Source: Burkholderiales bacterium
Lineage (GTDB): Bacteria; Pseudomonadota; Gammaproteobacteria; Burkholderiales; Burkholderiaceae_C
DNA: 64,000 bases
Direction of reading: 5' to 3'
NCBI GenBank assembly: GCA_016223165.1
Contig: JACRPO010000007.1
Location: forward strand, 802,843-866,842
This document shows, piece by piece, positions 10,074 to 48,743 of the stretch; within the stretch, counting starts at the first letter, position 1; the number at the start of each line of letters is the position of its first letter. The notes beneath the pieces are model-generated. The model searched no databases. It worked only from the letters and a program-made list of their open reading frames with translations, and had not been told where the DNA came from. Position numbers and translations under genes: made by a program.

Positions 10074-10205
10074 CCGGTTCGGCGAGCGGCTTCGCACGCC
10101 GCCCCAGACACCAGCCGTGCGCCTGAGCGCCTGAGCGCCTGTGCGCCTGTGCGGCCGCGCGTCATGCGGCCGCGTGCCACGCCTGCGGCGGTCTCGGCTC
10201 GCTCC

Positions 10206-12431
10206 TCAGATCGCCAGCGGATCCACGTCCACCGCCCAACGGATCACACCGCGGTGGTGCGCGCGCAGCGCCACCAGCCCGGGCAGCCAGGCAGCCAGCG
10301 CGCGCTGCAGCAGCGGCCGTGAGCGCGACTCGACGAGCATCTGCACGCGCTCGACATCGGCCACGCGCGCCAGCGCCGGCGGCACCGGCGGATAGGCGCG
10401 GAGGTCCGCGGCCCCGGCCAGCGCCTGCAGTTGCACCGCGGCGTCGCGCAGGAAGGCGGTGGCCGCGGCCGCCTCGCGCGCCTCGGCGCGCACGAGCGCC
10501 AGGTGCGTGAAGGGGGGCAGGCCCGCGGCACGCCGCTCGTCGAGCTGCGCCTGCGCGAAAGCCTCGTAGTCGTGGCGCACCAGCGCCGCGTAGAGCGCAT
10601 GCCCCGGGCTCGTCGTCTGGATCCACATCTCGCTGCCGGCCGACTGCGCCGCGTCGCGGCCGGCGCGGCCGGCGGCCTGCATCAGGAGCGCGAACAGCCG
10701 CTCGGGGGCGCGGAAGTCGCTCGTGAAGAGGGCGCCGTCGGGGTTCACCGCCGCCACCAGCGTGACGCGACGGAAGTCGTGCCCCTTGGCGAGGATCTGC
10801 GTGCCCACGAGCACGTCGACCTCGCCGTCGTGCACGGCGGCGAGCTGGCGCGCGAGCTCGCCGACGCCGCGCGTGCTGTCGGCGTCGATGCGGGCGATGC
10901 GCGCACCGGGCAGCACGGCGGCGAGCTGCTCCTCGAGCTTCTCGGTGCCGCGGCCGATGGGCGCGATGTCGAGGTTGCCACACTCGGGGCAAGCACGCGG
11001 CACGCGCTCGGTGAGGCCGCAGTGGTGGCAGCGCAGCGTGCGGTCGGCCTTGTGGAAGACGCGCCAGGCGCTGCAATGCGGGCAGCCGCTCTTCCAACCG
11101 CAGGCCGGGCAGTGCAGCACCGGCGCATAGCCGCGCCGGTTGAGCAGCAGCAGGCTCTGCTCGCCGCGCTCGACGCGCTCGCGAAGGGCGGCGAGCAGGG
11201 GCGGCGCCAGCGGCGTCGCATCGCCGCTGCCGGCCCCCGGGCCGCTGGCCGGCAAGCGGCGCATGTCGACGAGGCGCACGCGCGGCAGCTCGCCGCCGCC
11301 GATGCGCTGCGGCAGCGCCAGCCGCCGGTAGCGCCCCTGCAGCACGCGCTGCCAGGTCTCCAGCGACGGCGTTGCCGAGCCCAGCAGCACCGGCACGCCG
11401 AGCTGGCGGGCGCGCCACACAGCGAGGTCGCGCGCCGAGTAGCGCGCCCCTTCCTGCTGCTTGAACGAGGCGTCGTGTTCCTCGTCGACGACGATGAGCC
11501 CCAGGCGCGGCAGGGAGGCGAAGACCGCCAGCCGCGTGCCGAGCACGAGATCGGCGCGGCCCTCGTGCGCGAGCAGCCAGTGGCGCAGGCGCTGCGCCGG
11601 TGTGAGCGCGCTGTGCAGGCTGGCCAGCGTGTGGGCCGGAAAGCGCGTGGCGAAGCGCGCCTCCAGTTGCGGCGTGAGGTTGATCTCGGGCACCAGCACG
11701 AGCACCTGCCGCCCCGCCTGCAGCGCACGCGCCGCCGCGCGCAGGTAGACCTCGGTCTTGCCGCTGCCGGTGACGCCGTGCAGCAGGGCCGGCGTCGCAT
11801 CGAGCGCGAAGGCTTCGAGCGCCGCGTCCTGGTCGGCCGTCAACGCCACCTGGGCGGCGGCACCGGCTGCCCCGGTGGGAGGCGCACCTGCGGCTGTCGG
11901 CTCGGGTTCCGGCGGCGCGGGCGACGTGGACGGCGCAGCCACCGCGGGCGGCGCGGGCGGCGCCGGCCGCTCCAGCCGCCGGAGGCGGCGCGCCAACTGC
12001 GTGTCGTCGATCTGGCGCAGCTGCGGCGGCAGCACCGCCAGCGCCAGCTCGCCAACGCCACGCTGGTAGTAGCCGGCCGCGAAGTCGATCAACGCGCGCC
12101 AGGAGGCGGAGAGCGGCGGCATCGCATCGAGCGCGGCCTTCACCGGCTTCAATGTTGGCGTCGGCGTCTGCGTGGCGGGCGATGCCGCCGCCTGCGCGGG
12201 CGTTGCGTCGGCTGCCGCAACCTCCGCGCCGGCACCGGCAAGCGCTGGCGGCCGGTCCCAGACGATGCCCGCCACCTCGCGGCGGCCCAGGGGCACGCGC
12301 ACCAGCGTTCCCGGCGCGAGTGTCCGCTCGCTCGTGTAGTCGAGCAGGCCCGTGGCGGCGGCCAGCGCCGCATGCCGTGGCGCTTCGACAGCCACCGTGA
12401 CGCGTACCGGCGGGCTCGTTTCGCCGCTCAT
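10206..12431 (-). CDS. priA: Primosomal protein N' (replication restart helicase)
   Basis: LLHGVTGSGKTEVYL, VDEEHDASFKQ, zinc-binding CPACGWKSGCPHC...CHHCG, GRGTEKLEEQL. Confidence 0.96.
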   Translation of the reverse strand: MSGETSPPVRVTVAVEAPRHAALAAATGLLDYTSERTLAPGTLVRVPLGRREVAGIVWDRPPALAGAGAEVAAADATPAQAAASPATQTPTPTLKPVKAALDAMPPLSASWRALIDFAAGYYQRGVGELALAVLPPQLRQIDDTQLARRLRRLERPAPPAPPAVAAPSTSPAPPEPEPTAAGAPPTGAAGAAAQVALTADQDAALEAFALDATPALLHGVTGSGKTEVYLRAAARALQAGRQVLVLVPEINLTPQLEARFATRFPAHTLASLHSALTPAQRLRHWLLAHEGRADLVLGTRLAVFASLPRLGLIVVDEEHDASFKQQEGARYSARDLAVWRARQLGVPVLLGSATPSLETWQRVLQGRYRRLALPQRIGGGELPRVRLVDMRRLPASGPGAGSGDATPLAPPLLAALRERVERGEQSLLLLNRRGYAPVLHCPACGWKSGCPHCSAWRVFHKADRTLRCHHCGLTERVPRACPECGNLDIAPIGRGTEKLEEQLAAVLPGARIARIDADSTRGVGELARQLAAVHDGEVDVLVGTQILAKGHDFRRVTLVAAVNPDGALFTSDFRAPERLFALLMQAAGRAGRDAAQSAGSEMWIQTTSPGHALYAALVRHDYEAFAQAQLDERRAAGLPPFTHLALVRAEAREAAAATAFLRDAAVQLQALAGAADLRAYPPVPPALARVADVERVQMLVESRSRPLLQRALAAWLPGLVALRAHHRGVIRWAVDVDPLAI

Positions 12432-40889: not shown

Positions 40890-41005
40890 TGAATGGCCCG
40901 CTTCGGCGGGCTGTCTTGCTGAATGGCCCGCTTCGGCGGGCTGTTTTGCTGAATGGCCCGCTTCGGCGTGCTGTTTTGCTGAATGGCCCGCTTCGGCGGG
41001 CCGTT
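40890..41005. repeat. Four tandem 30-bp repeats, each a UUCG-loop terminator-like hairpin
   Basis: TGAATGGCCCGCTTCGGCGGGCTGTTTTGC repeated at exact 30-bp period (40890, 40920, 40950, 40980) between convergent genes. Confidence 0.95.
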
Positions 41006-41030: not shown

Positions 41031-41786
41031 TCATCTCGCCGCGTCAGCCTCCGCCTCGGCGAAGCCGAGCACGACGCGGCGCGTCATCGCGCTCTTCTTC
41101 TCGATCTTCGTCACCACCACGGCCCCCACGTCGCGCGTGTTGGCCACATGCGTGCCGCCGCAGGGCTGCAGGTCCACGCCCTCGATCTCGAGCACGCGCA
41201 CGCGGCCCAGACCGCGCGGGGGCTGCACGCTCATGCTGCGCACGAGCCCGGGGTTGGCGTCGAGCTCGTCCTCGCCGATCCAGCGGTGGCGCACCGGGTG
41301 CGCCTCGGCCACCAGGCGCGCGATGCCCGCCGTCAACGCCTCCTTGTCGAGCGGCTCGTTCATGTGAAAGTCCAGCCGCGCATAGCCGGCGGTGATCGAG
41401 CAGCCGTTCACCGCGTGCGGCACGAGCGCGCACAGCAGGTGCGTCGCGGTGTGGAAGCGCATGTGCGCGCGGCGCCGCGCGGCATCGGCGATGCCCGTGA
41501 CCACCGCGCCCGGCACGAAGCGGGCACGCAGTGCCGCATCGGCGTGGGCGTCGCCTGCCACCGGCACATGAGCGATGGCGCCGGCGCGCTCCGGGTGCTT
41601 GCGCGTGTCGGCGATCGCGAGCACGGTGCCGTCGCCGAGCACGAGGCGGCCGGCATCACCGGCCTGGCCGCCGCCGAGCGGATAGAAGACCGTGCGGTCG
41701 AGCTCGATGCCCGCCGCGTCGACGGCGACGATGCGCGCCGTGCACTCGAGCAGGGTCGCGTCCTCTCGAAAGAGCTCTTCGGTCAT
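41031..41786 (-). CDS. Alanyl-tRNA editing protein (AlaX-like)
   Basis: RTVFYPLGGGQAGDAG, MRFHTATHLLCAL, DLQPCGGTHVANTRDVG. Confidence 0.93.
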   Translation of the reverse strand: MTEELFREDATLLECTARIVAVDAAGIELDRTVFYPLGGGQAGDAGRLVLGDGTVLAIADTRKHPERAGAIAHVPVAGDAHADAALRARFVPGAVVTGIADAARRRAHMRFHTATHLLCALVPHAVNGCSITAGYARLDFHMNEPLDKEALTAGIARLVAEAHPVRHRWIGEDELDANPGLVRSMSVQPPRGLGRVRVLEIEGVDLQPCGGTHVANTRDVGAVVVTKIEKKSAMTRRVVLGFAEAEADAAR

Positions 41787-42568
41787 GCACTCTCCAGGGT
41801 CACCGGGCCGCGTGGCGTGTCGAGGCCGACGCGCAAGGCGCCCAGCGACTGTGCCGGCGGCGCCGACTGTGCCACGAAGCGCACGCCCGAGAGGCCGAGC
41901 GCGGCGACGGCGCGCGGCGGCACGCCGGCGATCGAGACTTCGCGCAGCCGCACCGCCGAGGGCGGCATCGCGAGCGTCGGATGAACGCCCGGCCCTGCAG
42001 GTGATGCCGGCCACTCGATGAGCGTCGGCAGCGCGCCGCCGCACAGCAGGCGGCCGTCGCCGCGCACGGCGATGCGCCACTGCAGCAGCCCGGCGGGCGT
42101 CTGGCGCGAAGCCGCGAGCGCAACGCCGGCATCGAGGCCGGCGGCGGCGAGCGCGGCGAGATGCGCGTCGATCGCCGTCGTGCGCGCGGCGACGTGCCAC
42201 AGCTGCGGCCCGGCCTCGGCCAGGCGCCGCCGCGACAGCTCTTCGTCGAGCCCGAACCAGCGCGGCCGCGGTGGCGCAGGCGCGTCGGGGTCGACGGCGA
42301 TGATCTCCAGGTAGGCCCGCGGGAAGGCCGCGCTCTCGATCTTCAGCAGGCGGTTGTGCGTGCCGAAGAGCGCGTGCTTGCCACCGGGGCCCGGCGCCAC
42401 GCCCAGCGTCGCCTCGCACCAGGCGACGCCCTGCTCGAGCGTCGCGGCGGCAATCACCACGTGGTCGATGGCCGCCACCGGTGGCGCGCTCGGTGCGTCC
42501 GCAGCGCCCGGCATGTCTGGCGCGTTCGGCGCGTTCGGCGCGTTCGGCGCGTTCGGCACGTTCGGCAT
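41783..42568 (-). CDS. VOC/glyoxalase-like domain protein
   Basis: AAIDHVVIAAATLEQGVAWCEATLGVAPGPGGKHALFGTHNRLLKI; overlaps the alaX-like start by 4 bp. Confidence 0.88.
   Translation of the reverse strand: MPNVPNAPNAPNAPNAPDMPGAADAPSAPPVAAIDHVVIAAATLEQGVAWCEATLGVAPGPGGKHALFGTHNRLLKIESAAFPRAYLEIIAVDPDAPAPPRPRWFGLDEELSRRRLAEAGPQLWHVAARTTAIDAHLAALAAAGLDAGVALAASRQTPAGLLQWRIAVRGDGRLLCGGALPTLIEWPASPAGPGVHPTLAMPPSAVRLREVSIAGVPPRAVAALGLSGVRFVAQSAPPAQSLGALRVGLDTPRGPVTLESA
42519..42568. repeat. 9-bp tandem repeat (about 5 units) overlapping the VOC start codon
   Basis: GCGCGTTCG-type 9-mers; encodes MPNVPNAPNAPNAPNAPD. Confidence 0.88.
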
Positions 42569-42576
42569 GTCCGCCG

Positions 42577-43428
42577 TCAAAGACTCAATTCCCCTTGCAC
42601 GCAGCGGACGACATCGCCGCCGACCCAGATGTCTTCGCCTTCGCGACGCAGGAAGACGCGGCCGGCGCGCCGCAGCGCCGCGCCCTGCGCCGCGACGTAC
42701 GCGTCGCGTGCGACGCCGGTGCGCATCAGCCATTGCGCGACGCTGGCGTTGAGGCTGCCCGTCACCGGGTCCTCGTACATGCCGCCGCCGATGAAGGCGC
42801 GTAGCTCGAAGGCCGGTTCGGCGCCCGCCGCATGCGGGCCGACGACGCCGAGCTTGAGATCGCCGAGCGCCGGCCAGTCGGGGTGCAGCGCCAGGACGCG
42901 CTCGGCGCTGTCGAGCAGCACGCCGGCCCAGCCGGGACCGTTGTCGACCCACTGATGGGCGCGCACGGCGCCAGCGGGCAGCCGCAGGGCGCGCACGATG
43001 CGCTCGAGCACCTGCTCCTCGAGCGGCCCGCTGCGCCGCGTCGGCGGTGCCGCGAAAGCCAGGCGCGAAGCGTGTCCCGCGTCGCGGCGCACGCGCACGA
43101 GGCCGACACCGCATTGCTGCACGACCACGCCAGGGTCCGCAGCCGCACGTGGCCGCCCGCCCGCGGCCAGCCAGGCCCAGCAGGTGCCGAGCGTCGGGTG
43201 GCCGGCGAAGGGCAGCTCGCCGCCGGGCGTGAAGATGCGCACGCGGTAATCGGCCGCGGGGTCGGTGGGCGACAGCAGGAAGGTCGTCTCCGAGAGATTG
43301 GTCCAGCGCGCGAACGCCGCCATCGTCTCCTCCGAGAGGCCGTCGGCGCCGTGCACGACGGCGAGCGGGTTGCCCTTCAGCGGCACGGCGCTGAAGACGT
43401 CGACCTGGTCGAACGGGTGCAGGCTCAT
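42577..43428 (-). CDS. PhzF family phenazine biosynthesis-like protein/isomerase
   Basis: FDQVDVFSAVPLKGNPLAVVHGADGLSEETMAAFARWTNLSETTFLL; PGGELPFAGHPTLGTC. Confidence 0.94.
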   Translation of the reverse strand: MSLHPFDQVDVFSAVPLKGNPLAVVHGADGLSEETMAAFARWTNLSETTFLLSPTDPAADYRVRIFTPGGELPFAGHPTLGTCWAWLAAGGRPRAAADPGVVVQQCGVGLVRVRRDAGHASRLAFAAPPTRRSGPLEEQVLERIVRALRLPAGAVRAHQWVDNGPGWAGVLLDSAERVLALHPDWPALGDLKLGVVGPHAAGAEPAFELRAFIGGGMYEDPVTGSLNASVAQWLMRTGVARDAYVAAQGAALRRAGRVFLRREGEDIWVGGDVVRCVQGELSL

Positions 43429-44606
43429 TTCTGCAAGGCCTCCTCGATGACAGCGGCGAGCGCGCGCACGCCTTCCTCGATCTTCGCCGGCGGCACGGTG
43501 ACGAACGAGAGCCGCAGCGTATGCGCGTGTGAACCGGAAGTGAAGAAGGGCGCGCCGGGCACGTAGGCCACGCCGCGCTCGACCGCCTTCGGCAGCAGCG
43601 CCGTGGCGTCGAGCGAGCTCGGCAGCTCGACCCAGAAGAACATGCCGCCCTCGGGCGCGTTGAAGCGGCAGCCTGCCGGCAGGTGCGCCTGCAGCGCCGC
43701 GCGCATAGCGTCGCGCTGCGCCCGGTAGCGGGCGCGGATGGTCGGCACGTGCTCGCGCAGGAAGCCGTTCTTGATGACCTCGTACACCACACGCTGGTTG
43801 AAGCCCGGCGTGTGCAGGTCGGCCGCCTGCTTGGCCTGCAGCATCTTCGGGAACAGTTGCTTGGGCGGCACGACGTAGCCCAGGCGCAGGCCAGGCGCCA
43901 GCACCTTCGAGAACGAGCCGAGGTAGATGGCCCCGTCCCCGAGGCGCGCGGCCAGCGGCGGCGGCGGCGGCGCATCGAACCAGAGGTCGCCGTAGGGGTT
44001 GTCTTCGACGACCGGCAGGCCGATCGACTGTGCCGCCGCAGCCAGCGCATCGCGCCGCGCCGCGCTCAGGCAGCGGCCGCTCGGGTTCTGGAAATTCGGC
44101 AGCAGGTACATGAAGCGCGCCCCGCGCGCCGAGGCGAGCGCCGCCGGGTCGGGGCCTTCGGCGTCGCCCTCGACGGCCACGAACTCCGGCTCGAACGGCG
44201 CGAAGGCCTGCAGCGCGCCAAGGTAGGTGGGCGACTCGACCGCGACCGCACTGCCCGGGTCGATGAGCACCTTGCCGACGAGGTCCAGGCCCTGCTGCGA
44301 ACCGGTGGTGATGAGCACCTGCGCGGCCTCGACCGCGAGGCCCATGCCGCACAGCTCGGCGGCGACCCACTCGCGCAGCGGGCCGTAGCCCTCGCTGGCC
44401 GCGTATTGCAGCGCCTCGCGCGGCTGTTCGCGCAGCACGCGTTCGGTGGCCTCGCGCATCGCCTGCACCGGGAAGGTGTCGGCCGAAGGCAGCCCTCCGG
44501 CAAGCGAGATGATGCCCGGCCGTTCGCTCAGCTTGAGGATCTCGCGGATCGTCGAAGGGTTCAACCGCGCAGCGCGGCGGGCCATCTGCCAGTGTGTGGT
44601 GCTCAT
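43425..44606 (-). CDS. PLP-dependent aminotransferase (2-aminoadipate aminotransferase/LysN-like)
   Basis: PGIISLAGGLPSADTFP, TTGSQQGLDLVGKVLIDPG, YLLPNFQNPSGR, GSFSKVLAPGLRLGY. Confidence 0.93.
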   Translation of the reverse strand: MSTTHWQMARRAARLNPSTIREILKLSERPGIISLAGGLPSADTFPVQAMREATERVLREQPREALQYAASEGYGPLREWVAAELCGMGLAVEAAQVLITTGSQQGLDLVGKVLIDPGSAVAVESPTYLGALQAFAPFEPEFVAVEGDAEGPDPAALASARGARFMYLLPNFQNPSGRCLSAARRDALAAAAQSIGLPVVEDNPYGDLWFDAPPPPPLAARLGDGAIYLGSFSKVLAPGLRLGYVVPPKQLFPKMLQAKQAADLHTPGFNQRVVYEVIKNGFLREHVPTIRARYRAQRDAMRAALQAHLPAGCRFNAPEGGMFFWVELPSSLDATALLPKAVERGVAYVPGAPFFTSGSHAHTLRLSFVTVPPAKIEEGVRALAAVIEEALQK

Positions 44607-45652
44607 GGGTGTGTCGGGTGTGTCCTGCCGGGCTCTTTGCTGTCGGGCTCGTGCTTCGTCACCGGCGCCGCCGGCATCACCGGCGTCACAGGCATGCGCT
44701 TGCCGATGAAGACCACGGCCACCACGGCGAGCGCGAAGCCCACCGTCAGCGGCTCGAGCCGCTCGCCGAGGATGGGCACGGCGGCCAGCAGCGCGAGGAA
44801 GGGCTGCGCCAGCTGAGTCTGGCTGACGCGCAGCACGCCGCCCTGCGCAAGGCCGCGGTACCAGGCGAAGAAGCCGAGCCACATCGAGAACAGCGTGACA
44901 TAGGCGAAGCCGGCCCAGGCGGCGGGCGCTGCCGGGGCTTCGGGCCAGGTGAGCAGCATCGCCGGCAGCGTGAGCGGCAGCGAGATCACGAGCACCCAGC
45001 AGATCGTCTGCTCGGCCGGCAGGTGCATCGAGACGCGCGCGCCGGCCACATAGCCGACGGCCGCACTCGCCACCGCGAGCGCCAGCCAGGCATCGGCCAC
45101 CACGAGCCGCCCGCCGCCAGAGATGAAGGCGAAAGCGATGACCAGGCCGCAGCCGGCCAGCGCGCAAACCCAGAACCCGAGCGAGGCGCGCTGGCGCAGC
45201 GCGAGCGCGGCGCCGACGGCCGTGCCGAGCGGAAGGACGCCGGTCACCACCGACGCGTGCATGGCCGGCACCTCGCGCAGTGCCATGGCCAGGCCGAGCG
45301 GAAAGCCAACCACCGTGCCGGCCGCCGAGAGGGCGAGCAGCGGCCACAGCCGGCGCGCCGGCCACGGTGACCGCCCGCCGGCGGCGAGCCAGAGATAGGC
45401 CAGGCTCAGCAGCCCGGCAAAGGCGGCTCGGCCGGCGGTGACGAAGGCCGGCGGCAGCTGCGGCGCCGCCTGGTCGCCGACGGCCAGGCGGGTCATCGGC
45501 ATCGTCAGCGCGAAGATCAACACGCCGAGCGCGCCCCAGGCGAAGCCGCGCGCGACACGCCGCGCGTCGGCATGCGCGCCGACATGCGCATCGGCAGGCG
45601 CGTCGGCACGCGCGAGGGCTGCCGGCGTCGCCGCGGCCACGACACGGCTCAT
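44603..45652 (-). CDS. DMT superfamily transporter (EamA domains)
   Basis: About 10 hydrophobic segments; internal duplication; LAQPFLALLAAVPILGERLEPLTVGF. Confidence 0.88.
   Translation of the reverse strand: MSRVVAAATPAALARADAPADAHVGAHADARRVARGFAWGALGVLIFALTMPMTRLAVGDQAAPQLPPAFVTAGRAAFAGLLSLAYLWLAAGGRSPWPARRLWPLLALSAAGTVVGFPLGLAMALREVPAMHASVVTGVLPLGTAVGAALALRQRASLGFWVCALAGCGLVIAFAFISGGGRLVVADAWLALAVASAAVGYVAGARVSMHLPAEQTICWVLVISLPLTLPAMLLTWPEAPAAPAAWAGFAYVTLFSMWLGFFAWYRGLAQGGVLRVSQTQLAQPFLALLAAVPILGERLEPLTVGFALAVVAVVFIGKRMPVTPVMPAAPVTKHEPDSKEPGRTHPTHP
45565..45612. repeat. 12-bp near-tandem repeat (4 units) in the EamA N-terminal coding region
   Basis: CGTCGGCATGCG CGCCGACATGCG CATCGGCAGGCG CGTCGGCACGCG. 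Confidence 0.75.
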
Positions 45653-46248
45653 GCGCGCGCCATCCACAGCGCCGTGCCCGCCAGCAGCAGGGCGAGCCCG
45701 CGGTTGAAGGCGAGCAGCCGCCGCCCCTGCGCCAGCCAGCGCCGCAGTGCCGCGCCCACCCAGGCATAGGTGAAGTTGCTCGCGAGCGCGAACACCATCA
45801 GCACCGGCAGCACCTGCAGCAGCCGCCACTCGGGCGCGTCGCCGCGGTTGATCCAGCCGACGCTCACCACGAGGGCCAGGATCCAGGCCTTGATGTTGAC
45901 GAACTGGAGCAGCACGCCATGGCCGAAGCCGACGTCGAAGCGCTCGGGGTCGTCGGCGGCGAGCGCGGCCGACTCGGCCAGCCGCCAGGCCAGCCACAAC
46001 ATGTAGCCGACGCCCGCCCACTTGACGAAGCCCCGCAGCACCGGCGCCGCGTTCAGCAGCGCGCCCAGGCCGAGCGCGCAGGCGACGACGACGACCCCCC
46101 AACCCACGGGCACGCCGAGCACGAAGCGCATCGAGTGGCGCAGGCCACGATTGGCCGCCAAGGCCGCCGCCAGCGTGGTGTTGGGGCCCGGCGTGAAGCT
46201 CATCGCCGTGGCAACGAACAGCAGCGCGGCCCATTCGGAGCCCGTCAT
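45649..46248 (-). CDS. LysE family translocator
   Basis: AMSFTPGPNTTLAAALAANRGLRHSMRFVLGVPVGWG; 4-bp overlap with the EamA gene. Confidence 0.93.
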   Translation of the reverse strand: MTGSEWAALLFVATAMSFTPGPNTTLAAALAANRGLRHSMRFVLGVPVGWGVVVVACALGLGALLNAAPVLRGFVKWAGVGYMLWLAWRLAESAALAADDPERFDVGFGHGVLLQFVNIKAWILALVVSVGWINRGDAPEWRLLQVLPVLMVFALASNFTYAWVGAALRRWLAQGRRLLAFNRGLALLLAGTALWMARA

Positions 46249-46322
46249 GCGCTCAGTCTAGCGGCCACGGGCGACACAGGAGCAATACACTCCCACCGAC
46301 AGTTCCAGCATCTGTACTGCCC

Positions 46323-47840
46323 ATGTCGACGACACAGATCGAAGCCGGCCTGGCTCGTGCCGGCCGCGCCACGCTGAGCGAGCAGCTGGCCGAGCGCTTT
46401 GCCGAGCGCATCCGCCAGCGCCTGCTGAGTCCCGGCACGCGCCTGCCTTCCGTACGTGCTTGCGCGGCGCGCCACGGCGTGAGCCCGAGCACCGTGGTCG
46501 GCGCCTACGACCTGCTGCAGGCGCAGGGGCTCGTGCAGGCACGGCCGCAGCGCGGCTTCTTCGTGCGCGAGGCGGCGACACCGGCGCGTCCGGCCGCCGC
46601 GCTGGGCGCCGCCACCGCAAGCCCGGCGCCTGCGGCCGGGGCCGCTTCGGCCACCGCGCCCGCGGCGGCGAAAGGGATGGCGCCCGTGCCGGCCGAGGCT
46701 GCCGCCCCGCCGCCGCGCCCCGTGGACGCCACTGCGCTCATCCGCGGCATGTTCCGCCCGCGCCGCGGCGCGCCGCCGGCGCCGGCGCAAGGCACGCTGC
46801 CCGAGGCCTGGCTCGATGCCGGCCTGCTGCAGCGCGCGCTGCGCCGCGTCACGGCCGGTGCCGGCGCGCAGGGCTGGCTCTCGTACGGCGACCCGGCCGG
46901 CGACCCGCGCCTGCGCCGCGCGCTCGTGCAGCGGCTGGCCGACATCGGCGTGCCCGCCACCGTCGAGCAGATCGTGACCACGGTGGGCGCGACGCACGCC
47001 CTCGACCTCGTCGCGCGCACGCTGCTGCAGCCCGGCGATGCCGTGCTCGTCGACGAGCCGGGCTGGGCGGTCGAGTACGCGCGCCTCACGCGCATGGGCC
47101 TCAACCTGCTGCCGGTGCCGCGCGGCCCCGAAGGACCCGACCTCGCGGTGCTGCAGGCGCTGGCCGAGGCGCACCGGCCTCGCCTGTACGTCACCGTGTC
47201 GGTGCTGCACAACCCCACCGGCGCCTCGCTGGCGCCGGCGCACGCACACCGCCTGCTGCGCCTGGCCGAGGCGCTGGACTTCATGCTCGTCGAGGACGAC
47301 ACCTACGCCTGGCTGGCGCCGGCACACGCGACGCGCGTCGCCCAGCTCGACGCGCTGCAGCGCACGATCTACGTCTCGGGCTTCTCGAAGATCCTCGTGC
47401 CGCAGTGGCGCGTCGGCTATGTCGCCGCCGCCCCGGCCATGGCCGAGCGGCTGATCGACACCAAGATGCTGGGCACGCTCACGACGCCGGCGCCACTCGA
47501 GCAGGCGGTGGCCTGGTGCCTCGAGCAGGGTGCGCTGCGCCGCCACGCCGAGCGCGTCACCGCGCTGCTGGCGGCGGCGCGCTCGCGCACCGTGCGGCTG
47601 GCGCGCGAGGCCGGCTGCCGCTTCGCCGCGCCGCCCGAGGGGCTGTTCGGCTGGCTCGACGTGGGTGCCGACACCGAACACCTGGCCCACCTGCTGCTGG
47701 ACGAAGGCTGGCTGACGGCGCCGGGCAGCCTTTTCCACGCCACGCCGCGACCGACGACGCTGATGCGGGTGAACTTCGCCACCGCGCAGGACGCCCGCTT
47801 CTGGCACAGGCTGCAGGCCCTCCGGGAGGAGGGTTCCTGA
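46323..47840 (+). CDS. MocR/GntR-family PLP-dependent transcriptional regulator
   Basis: N-terminal GntR wHTH (LAERFAERIRQRLLSPGTRLPSVRACAARHGVSPSTVVGAYDLL) fused to an aminotransferase fold (VSVLHNPTGASLAPAHA, YVSGFSKILVPQWRVGY). Confidence 0.95.
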   Translation: MSTTQIEAGLARAGRATLSEQLAERFAERIRQRLLSPGTRLPSVRACAARHGVSPSTVVGAYDLLQAQGLVQARPQRGFFVREAATPARPAAALGAATASPAPAAGAASATAPAAAKGMAPVPAEAAAPPPRPVDATALIRGMFRPRRGAPPAPAQGTLPEAWLDAGLLQRALRRVTAGAGAQGWLSYGDPAGDPRLRRALVQRLADIGVPATVEQIVTTVGATHALDLVARTLLQPGDAVLVDEPGWAVEYARLTRMGLNLLPVPRGPEGPDLAVLQALAEAHRPRLYVTVSVLHNPTGASLAPAHAHRLLRLAEALDFMLVEDDTYAWLAPAHATRVAQLDALQRTIYVSGFSKILVPQWRVGYVAAAPAMAERLIDTKMLGTLTTPAPLEQAVAWCLEQGALRRHAERVTALLAAARSRTVRLAREAGCRFAAPPEGLFGWLDVGADTEHLAHLLLDEGWLTAPGSLFHATPRPTTLMRVNFATAQDARFWHRLQALREEGS

Positions 47841-47996: not shown

Positions 47997-48743
47997 ATGC
48001 CTTTCCAATCCACGCAGCCGGCCTCCGGGGTCGGCACACCGCGGTCGGCCGAGTTCATGGCCGGCCGGGCGAGCGAGGAGACCCTCGACTCGGTCGCCGG
48101 CGCGACGCGGCTGAGCTCGCTGTCGCCCTCCCTGATGGCCGACCTGCAGCGCTTCGGCAGCGAGACGGGCAGCGGTGCGCTCGACATGCTGGCGATGCTG
48201 GCCGCTTCGGTGCGGCACGGCCGCTCGCTGCGTGCCACGGTGCTCGTCGATCAGCACCAGGTGCCGCTCACCCTCTTCCCCACGGCACGCGTGGCGCACT
48301 CGCCGCTGCCGATGATCTCGCTGCTGTCGGGACGCGTGCAGGACTGGCGGCTGCTGCAGGTGGCGCCAGCGCAGATGAAGGCGCCGGGCGCGGCCGAGCT
48401 GCAATCGCTGGTGCACAACTACACGCCGCTGCCGCTGCTGCTGTGGGCCGTGGCGCAGCGCGGCTCGCGCGATTCGCTGCTGCCGGAGATCGCCGGCACG
48501 GCGGCCTACCGCGTCACGCCGTCGGCGGACCTGCGCCTGCTCGACCTCACGGGCACCGTGCTGGCCGCGGTGGAGCGGCTGCGGCGCAGCACGACCAACC
48601 TGCGCGACATCGCCGCCTGGCCCGGCTTCGACCGCGTGCGCGCGCAGCGGCTGCTGAACGGGCTGTACCTGCAGGCGGCCCTGCTCGTCAGCCGCACGCA
48701 CCCGGCGGCGACGAACGACGGCTGGGCGCACGCGCACCACTGA
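47997..48743 (+). CDS. Conserved-looking protein of unknown function with possible C-terminal winged helix
   Basis: 248-aa ORF; C-terminal TNLRDIAAWPGFDRVRAQRLLNGLYLQAALLVSRTHP; no family recognised. Confidence 0.7.
   Translation: MPFQSTQPASGVGTPRSAEFMAGRASEETLDSVAGATRLSSLSPSLMADLQRFGSETGSGALDMLAMLAASVRHGRSLRATVLVDQHQVPLTLFPTARVAHSPLPMISLLSGRVQDWRLLQVAPAQMKAPGAAELQSLVHNYTPLPLLLWAVAQRGSRDSLLPEIAGTAAYRVTPSADLRLLDLTGTVLAAVERLRRSTTNLRDIAAWPGFDRVRAQRLLNGLYLQAALLVSRTHPAATNDGWAHAHH

Follow-up and report, generated by a model that had tools for sequence, protein, structure and literature searches.

Why should a stand-alone alanyl-tRNA editing protein (AlaX) be encoded at the end of an operon of amino-acid exporters and enzymes? 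To our knowledge, the reason why many bacteria keep a stand-alone AlaX despite the editing carried out by alanyl-tRNA synthetase (AlaRS) is not settled. The question is raised by a six-gene operon in a stretch of 64,000 nucleotides (hereafter the window) from a Burkholderiales bacterium (contig JACRPO010000007.1, positions 802,843 to 866,842), whose genome of 7.3 Mb has Rubrivivax as its closest named relatives. The explanation that we slightly favour, as the best overall, is that of an amino-acid stress operon induced by a MocR regulator, which would combine export, deamination and the clearance of mischarged tRNA-Ala; the more general scheme, in which AlaX is a working part, we hold to be probable.

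The operon lies on the minus strand and begins with a lysE/rhtB-type exporter gene (45649..46248; Pfam LysE, E 6.9e-17). It continues with genes for an EamA/DMT-family exporter (44603..45652; Pfam EamA, two stretches), a fold-type I pyridoxal phosphate (PLP) aminotransferase of the LysN/KAT-II kind (43425..44606; Pfam Aminotran_1_2), a PhzF-family isomerase (42577..43428; Pfam PhzC-PhzF, E 9e-46), a VOC-fold protein (41783..42568; Pfam Glyoxalase_3, E 2.4e-37) and, last, an AlaX-M type protein with a tRNA_SAD domain (41031..41786). Read from the sequence, the LysE/EamA, EamA/aminotransferase, aminotransferase/PhzF and VOC/AlaX junctions are 4-bp ATGA overlaps, and 8 bp separate PhzF from VOC when the latter starts at the ATG at 42568; an in-frame TTG at 42580, taken as the VOC start instead, would give a fifth 4-bp overlap (TTGA). 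From the sequence we infer that the six genes are co-transcribed. The divergent gene on the plus strand (46323..47840) encodes a protein of MocR architecture, with an N-terminal GntR winged helix (Pfam, residues 18-81) fused to a fold-type I aminotransferase domain (Pfam Aminotran_1_2, residues 180-491), and inspection of the translated protein found the PLP-binding lysine kept in an SGFSK motif. Gene content, strand, junctions and divergent regulator are all as the initial annotation had described them.

The interval 46249-46322, which had been put forward as the target of MocR, does hold a conserved predicted operator. On the minus strand we recognised a putative tandem direct repeat, TGTATTG-CTC-CTGTGTCG (46272..46289), an upstream box in inverted orientation, CAGTACAG (46312..46319; CRRYACAG), and a predicted -10 element, TAGACT (46255..46260), 6 nt ahead of the lysE ATG. 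The divergent promoter thus appears to carry a phased operator, composed of CTGTAYYG direct repeats and the upstream box, with the -10 element at a fixed distance. In a comparison of 61 distinct MocR-operon intergenic regions of relatives with 50 shuffles, the tandem box occurred in 36 regions (shuffle mean 0.04), the upstream inverted CRRYACAG box in 54 (shuffle mean 0.52) and both at the correct spacing in 32 (shuffle mean 0), and in 20 relatives the tandem box and a TA(G)ACT element begin 28 or 29 bp apart. As far as can be read from the DNA, this agrees with what is expected of MocR factors, a direct-repeat operator near the promoter of the divergent target. With the -10-like element only 6 nt from the lysE ATG, a leaderless lysE transcript is predicted for this genus; a sigma-70 scan found no consensus promoter. 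The pattern TGTAYYGNNNCTGTRYYG has a single exact match in its own genome, at the operator, and since the reversed control pattern also matches once, genome-wide uniqueness says little for the operator.

Neighbourhood comparison across Burkholderiales showed that MocR, the exporters and the amino-acid enzymes are kept together as a single conserved unit. Among loci from the same genus and from named Burkholderiales (Rubrivivax, Roseateles, Paucibacter, Ideonella, Aquabacterium, Rivibacter) the recurrent order, with MocR divergent and the variable genes in brackets, is (LysE)-EamA-(racemase)-aminotransferase-PhzF-VOC-(dehydratase)-AlaX, and the block of MocR, exporter, aminotransferase, PhzF and VOC is kept in about 60 named Burkholderiales loci. 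The variable genes encode an Asp/Glu-type amino-acid racemase, sited between EamA and the aminotransferase in many relatives, and a PRK06110 threonine-dehydratase-like enzyme, found near VOC or the aminotransferase in many operons; Roseateles puraquae and two related loci carry, as insertions, genes for a Liv-type ABC transporter and a GNAT protein. In a family survey of 301 genomes, in which all linkage counts are among the matches listed, PhzF and the aminotransferase lie at most 3.5 kb apart in 100 of the 105 genomes listing both, which exceeds chance expectation. Some individual loci have their own arrangements. Two have large insertions separating genes of the operon from AlaX or the genes around it: L098 (2351-7577) contains an oligopeptide-type ABC transporter there, and L067 (1861-8876) some 7 kb of other genes. 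In L051 (~10095-11030), where the aminotransferase, PhzF and VOC are missing, an ornithine-cyclodeaminase-like open reading frame recognised by eye lies on the opposite strand between EamA and AlaX.

The gene set is not without precedent: leaving AlaX aside, it is already known in outline as a MocR regulon. PdxQ-type/MocR regulons (Suvorova and Rodionov 2016; PMC5320631) contain DMT/LysE transporters, aminotransferases, a GloA-family lyase and COG384 (PhzF), so that they share with the window operon MocR, DMT and/or LysE exporters, the aminotransferase, PhzF and GloA/VOC; the main text of that study makes no mention of AlaX. Its authors proposed a role of the PdxQ regulons in PLP metabolism and found RidA in some MocR regulons (PMC5320631), and this resemblance is the ground for reading the window operon as a PdxQ-type regulon of vitamin B6 (PLP) homeostasis, whose exporters and enzymes would serve PLP or PLP-damage metabolism. 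We regard that as rather improbable, because the window operon showed no recognisable pdxO/pdxH-like PLP gene (other regulon members may lie elsewhere), relatives add amino-acid genes to the set (racemase, Ser/Thr dehydratase, Liv ABC transporter) and a tRNA editing enzyme is not called for by PLP.

AlaX itself is linked to similar genes in other lineages. In a second Burkholderiales family, all 12 loci examined, from two genera, have MocR divergent from (VOC)-AlaX-(LysE)-EamA-RidA-family-aminotransferase. The AlaX of these operons forms a clade separate from that of the window (support 100/99), and a single clade for the two was rejected with a p-AU of 0.021, a moderate value. Their MocR promoters have the same 11-bp-spaced direct repeat, CTGTAYCG-GTA-CTGTACCG, plus another box upstream, and by inspection one genus carries the variant CTGTACAG. 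The occurrence of separate AlaX clades in the same kind of regulon points to AlaX having joined it twice separately, or having been replaced, and repeated recruitment suggests a functional link between AlaX and the operon. As further arrangements, we found AlaX between a PRK06110 dehydratase and PhzF at L252, AlaX-LysE with a divergent MocR-like regulator at L264 and, in Agrobacterium, AlaX followed by a DMT transporter and a dehydrogenase.

A different association was seen outside the class to which the window belongs: of 34 loci sampled there, 30 have a cysteine synthase gene (CysK, PRK10717) closely upstream of AlaX and in the same orientation, two of them carrying one further gene between. 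Twelve of them (L246-L249, L254, L270-L273, L276, L282, L283) have the order CysK-AlaX-SseA, with SseA a 3-mercaptopyruvate sulfurtransferase, and pSymB of S. meliloti is a named case of this cassette; 16 (L253, L255, L258 and 13 others) have CysK-MscS channel-AlaX. The cassette resembles the window operon in that AlaX adjoins PLP chemistry of C3 amino acids, but it has no MocR, exporter or PhzF, and its AlaX is only ~41% identical. At L132 a PatB C-S lyase precedes AlaX. In the main text of open-access papers we found no report of an AlaX-cysteine synthase association nor of a tRNA proofreader being repeatedly recruited into a MocR regulon, a provisional result.

Within the genus of the window, AlaX is an optional, not obligate, member of the operon, and a number of observations weigh against an amino-acid stress operon with AlaX as a working part. 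AlaX is present in 26 of 37 same-genus genomes; nine AlaX-less genomes retain PhzF, VOC and the aminotransferase, as well as MocR and the exporters where the contig reaches, and have cytochrome c' directly after VOC, again where the contig reaches. The presence of AlaX is associated neither with PhzF (22/26 vs 9/11, Fisher p = 1) nor with the aminotransferase (p = 0.39), and L091 and L092 have kept AlaX and lost MocR, the aminotransferase and PhzF. AlaX genes of the same clade stand alone in Rhizobacter and Accumulibacter. Synteny extends to the flanks (ABC-F, a 248-aa open reading frame, cytochrome c', b561, GNAT, aldose epimerase), so linkage of AlaX within the family says little about function and, with AlaX-less operons existing as well, we discounted family synteny as support. 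To these are added the AlaX-MscS pairing, the editing motifs retained by the organism's own AlaRS, an aminotransferase that resembles 2-aminoadipate/kynurenine enzymes more than serine ones, and a window copy that lacks dehydratase, racemase and RidA; the missing dehydratase is not simply encoded elsewhere, since the threonine-dehydratase homologues that this genome does have are remote, with identities of at most 36%.

Several of these observations would be explained if AlaX were a passenger downstream of a MocR-controlled amino-acid overflow or deamination operon, placed there by local gene order in one clade. Across the family, AlaX lies at most 3.5 kb from PhzF in 44 of 80 genomes, comprising 42 of 54 with an AlaX of at least 69% identity and 2 of the remaining 26. 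A passenger is also suggested by the Comamonadaceae-like branch, to which the count of 2 in 26 applies: there MocR is divergent from LysE-EamA-aminotransferase-PhzF-VOC-dehydratase (joined by a GST at one locus or more) and AlaX is found 4-5 kb or more downstream, with unrelated genes between; three loci of this branch (L227, L229, L230) have two phzF copies side by side. A passenger is nonetheless unlikely in view of the ATGA coupling of VOC and AlaX, the presence of a second AlaX lineage in MocR operons of the same type from another family, and the linkage of AlaX to a dehydratase and PhzF, or to MocR and LysE, in still other lineages. The assignment of AlaX to an amino-acid system, made in the initial annotation, is supported by links that recur independently, but not in the sense of an obligate component. 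A search of a plasmid collection found no AlaX above 60% identity.

According to the MocR-induced stress operon that we favour, MocR with its PLP would sense a small amino compound and, from the predicted CTGTAYYG repeats over the promoter, would activate one overlapping transcript. The EamA and LysE exporters would then lower the level of the amino acid by pumping it outward; the best named NCBIfam match of the LysE protein is a cysteine/O-acetylserine transporter model, far under its cut-off. The aminotransferase, whose nearest solved structure is the 2-aminoadipate aminotransferase of T. thermophilus (2egy, E 8e-101), would deaminate the amino acid, if the chemistry runs in that direction. 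Its product would be handled by PhzF, in which the catalytic Glu motif SETTF aligns with PhzF 1u1v, and by the VOC protein, and in relatives the Ser/Thr-dehydratase-like enzyme, the Asp/Glu-type racemase and a GST or RidA-family protein could serve as accessory enzymes. Finally, AlaX would hydrolyse the amino acid misloaded on tRNA-Ala, backing up the editing site of AlaRS, and since AlaRS keeps its own editing motifs it would act as a reserve sieve. The AlaX motifs GGGQxGDxG, HxxxH and CxxxH, the last two forming the zinc motif, are intact and nearly invariant in ~150 relatives. The NCBIfam AlaXM equivalog is the best model by far for this protein (residues 2-240 aligned), with a score of 166 bits against a cut-off of 300.

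The VOC protein has H36 and E88 invariant among relatives and H125 in at least 93% of them. A sequence search of solved structures gave no match for it; its AlphaFold model (pLDDT 90.5) has matches to VOC folds, among them methylmalonyl-CoA epimerase, 3p8a and HPPD, at the superfamily level only. A 9-bp tandem repeat (window 42519-42566, 5.3 copies) encodes a Pro-Asn-Ala-rich N-terminal extension of this protein that aligned relatives do not show. We rejected phenazine biosynthesis, as there is no other phz gene (phzA-G) among the operon and its neighbours.

Which amino acid would be involved? Our tentative assignment, held at well under even confidence, is to serine or another beta-substituted C3 amino acid; serine, cysteine, O-acetylserine, 2,3-diaminopropionate or an analogue would all be candidates. 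This class is favoured because AlaX is linked to CysK, SseA and PatB, to Ser/Thr-dehydratases, to the RidA family and to EamA/LysE, and because AlaX acts on Ser- and Gly-tRNA-Ala, an activity quoted as established in PMC10018355. An EamA-family exporter with a local regulator giving tolerance of small amino acids is known from B. subtilis, where AexA of the AexA/AerA ('sleeping beauty') system protects against serine, alanine and 2,3-diaminopropionate (PMC11005379); the regulator there is of the AraC type, however, and no enzymes or editing protein are described with it.

A narrower proposal would make the operon a 'detoxify and proofread' MocR regulon into which AlaX has been repeatedly recruited with a specificity beyond Ser/Gly, for instance for a beta-substituted or dehydroalanine-forming amino acid on tRNA-Ala. 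It would then be the tRNA-Ala counterpart of CtdA, a stand-alone editing enzyme encoded beside a canavanine-degradation operon (PMC10018355). We consider this joint claim possible but doubtful. The likeness lies in a stand-alone tRNA deacylase beside genes that degrade the amino acid proofread against (PMC10018355); CtdA, in contrast, is a B3/4-domain protein acting on tRNA-Arg, whereas the window enzyme is of the tRNA_SAD/AlaX type and expected on tRNA-Ala, and none of the six window products is a canavanine enzyme.

The racemase of many relatives, an Asp/Glu-type enzyme of broad specificity between EamA and the aminotransferase, and the Liv-type importer of Roseateles puraquae and two related loci would fit yet another reading, a route that breaks down or synthesises an unusual amino acid or a D-amino acid, in which AlaX gives self-protection against the compound or its D-form. 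AlaRS does misactivate D-Ala and edit the product (PMC6765224). The racemase is missing, however, in the window and in many relatives, action of AlaX on D-aminoacyl-tRNA is without evidence and no scaffold-forming biosynthetic genes lie alongside, and we think such a route improbable.

Of the initial annotation's proposal of a system that senses, converts, exports and proofreads against a toxic amino acid, then, the conserved unit and the recurrent AlaX links stand, while the substrate and its toxicity are what we infer. That AlaX has been drawn separately into amino-acid-export operons and cysteine-synthase cassettes suggests an inducible guard against particular amino acids. The defined operator, an inducer screen and a deletion phenotype make this idea testable, and concrete candidate substrates are supplied for a widespread MocR/PhzF/EamA gene set.

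Two features border the operon. A hairpin-capable 30-bp tandem repeat (40890..41005, 3.9 copies, 95% match) separates AlaX from the convergent cytochrome c' gene and may be a terminator; its terminator-like matches are on the plus strand only. On the other side, the 248-aa open reading frame at window 47997-48743 is without a Pfam or NCBIfam match and adjoins MocR in many relatives, at 43-83% identity.

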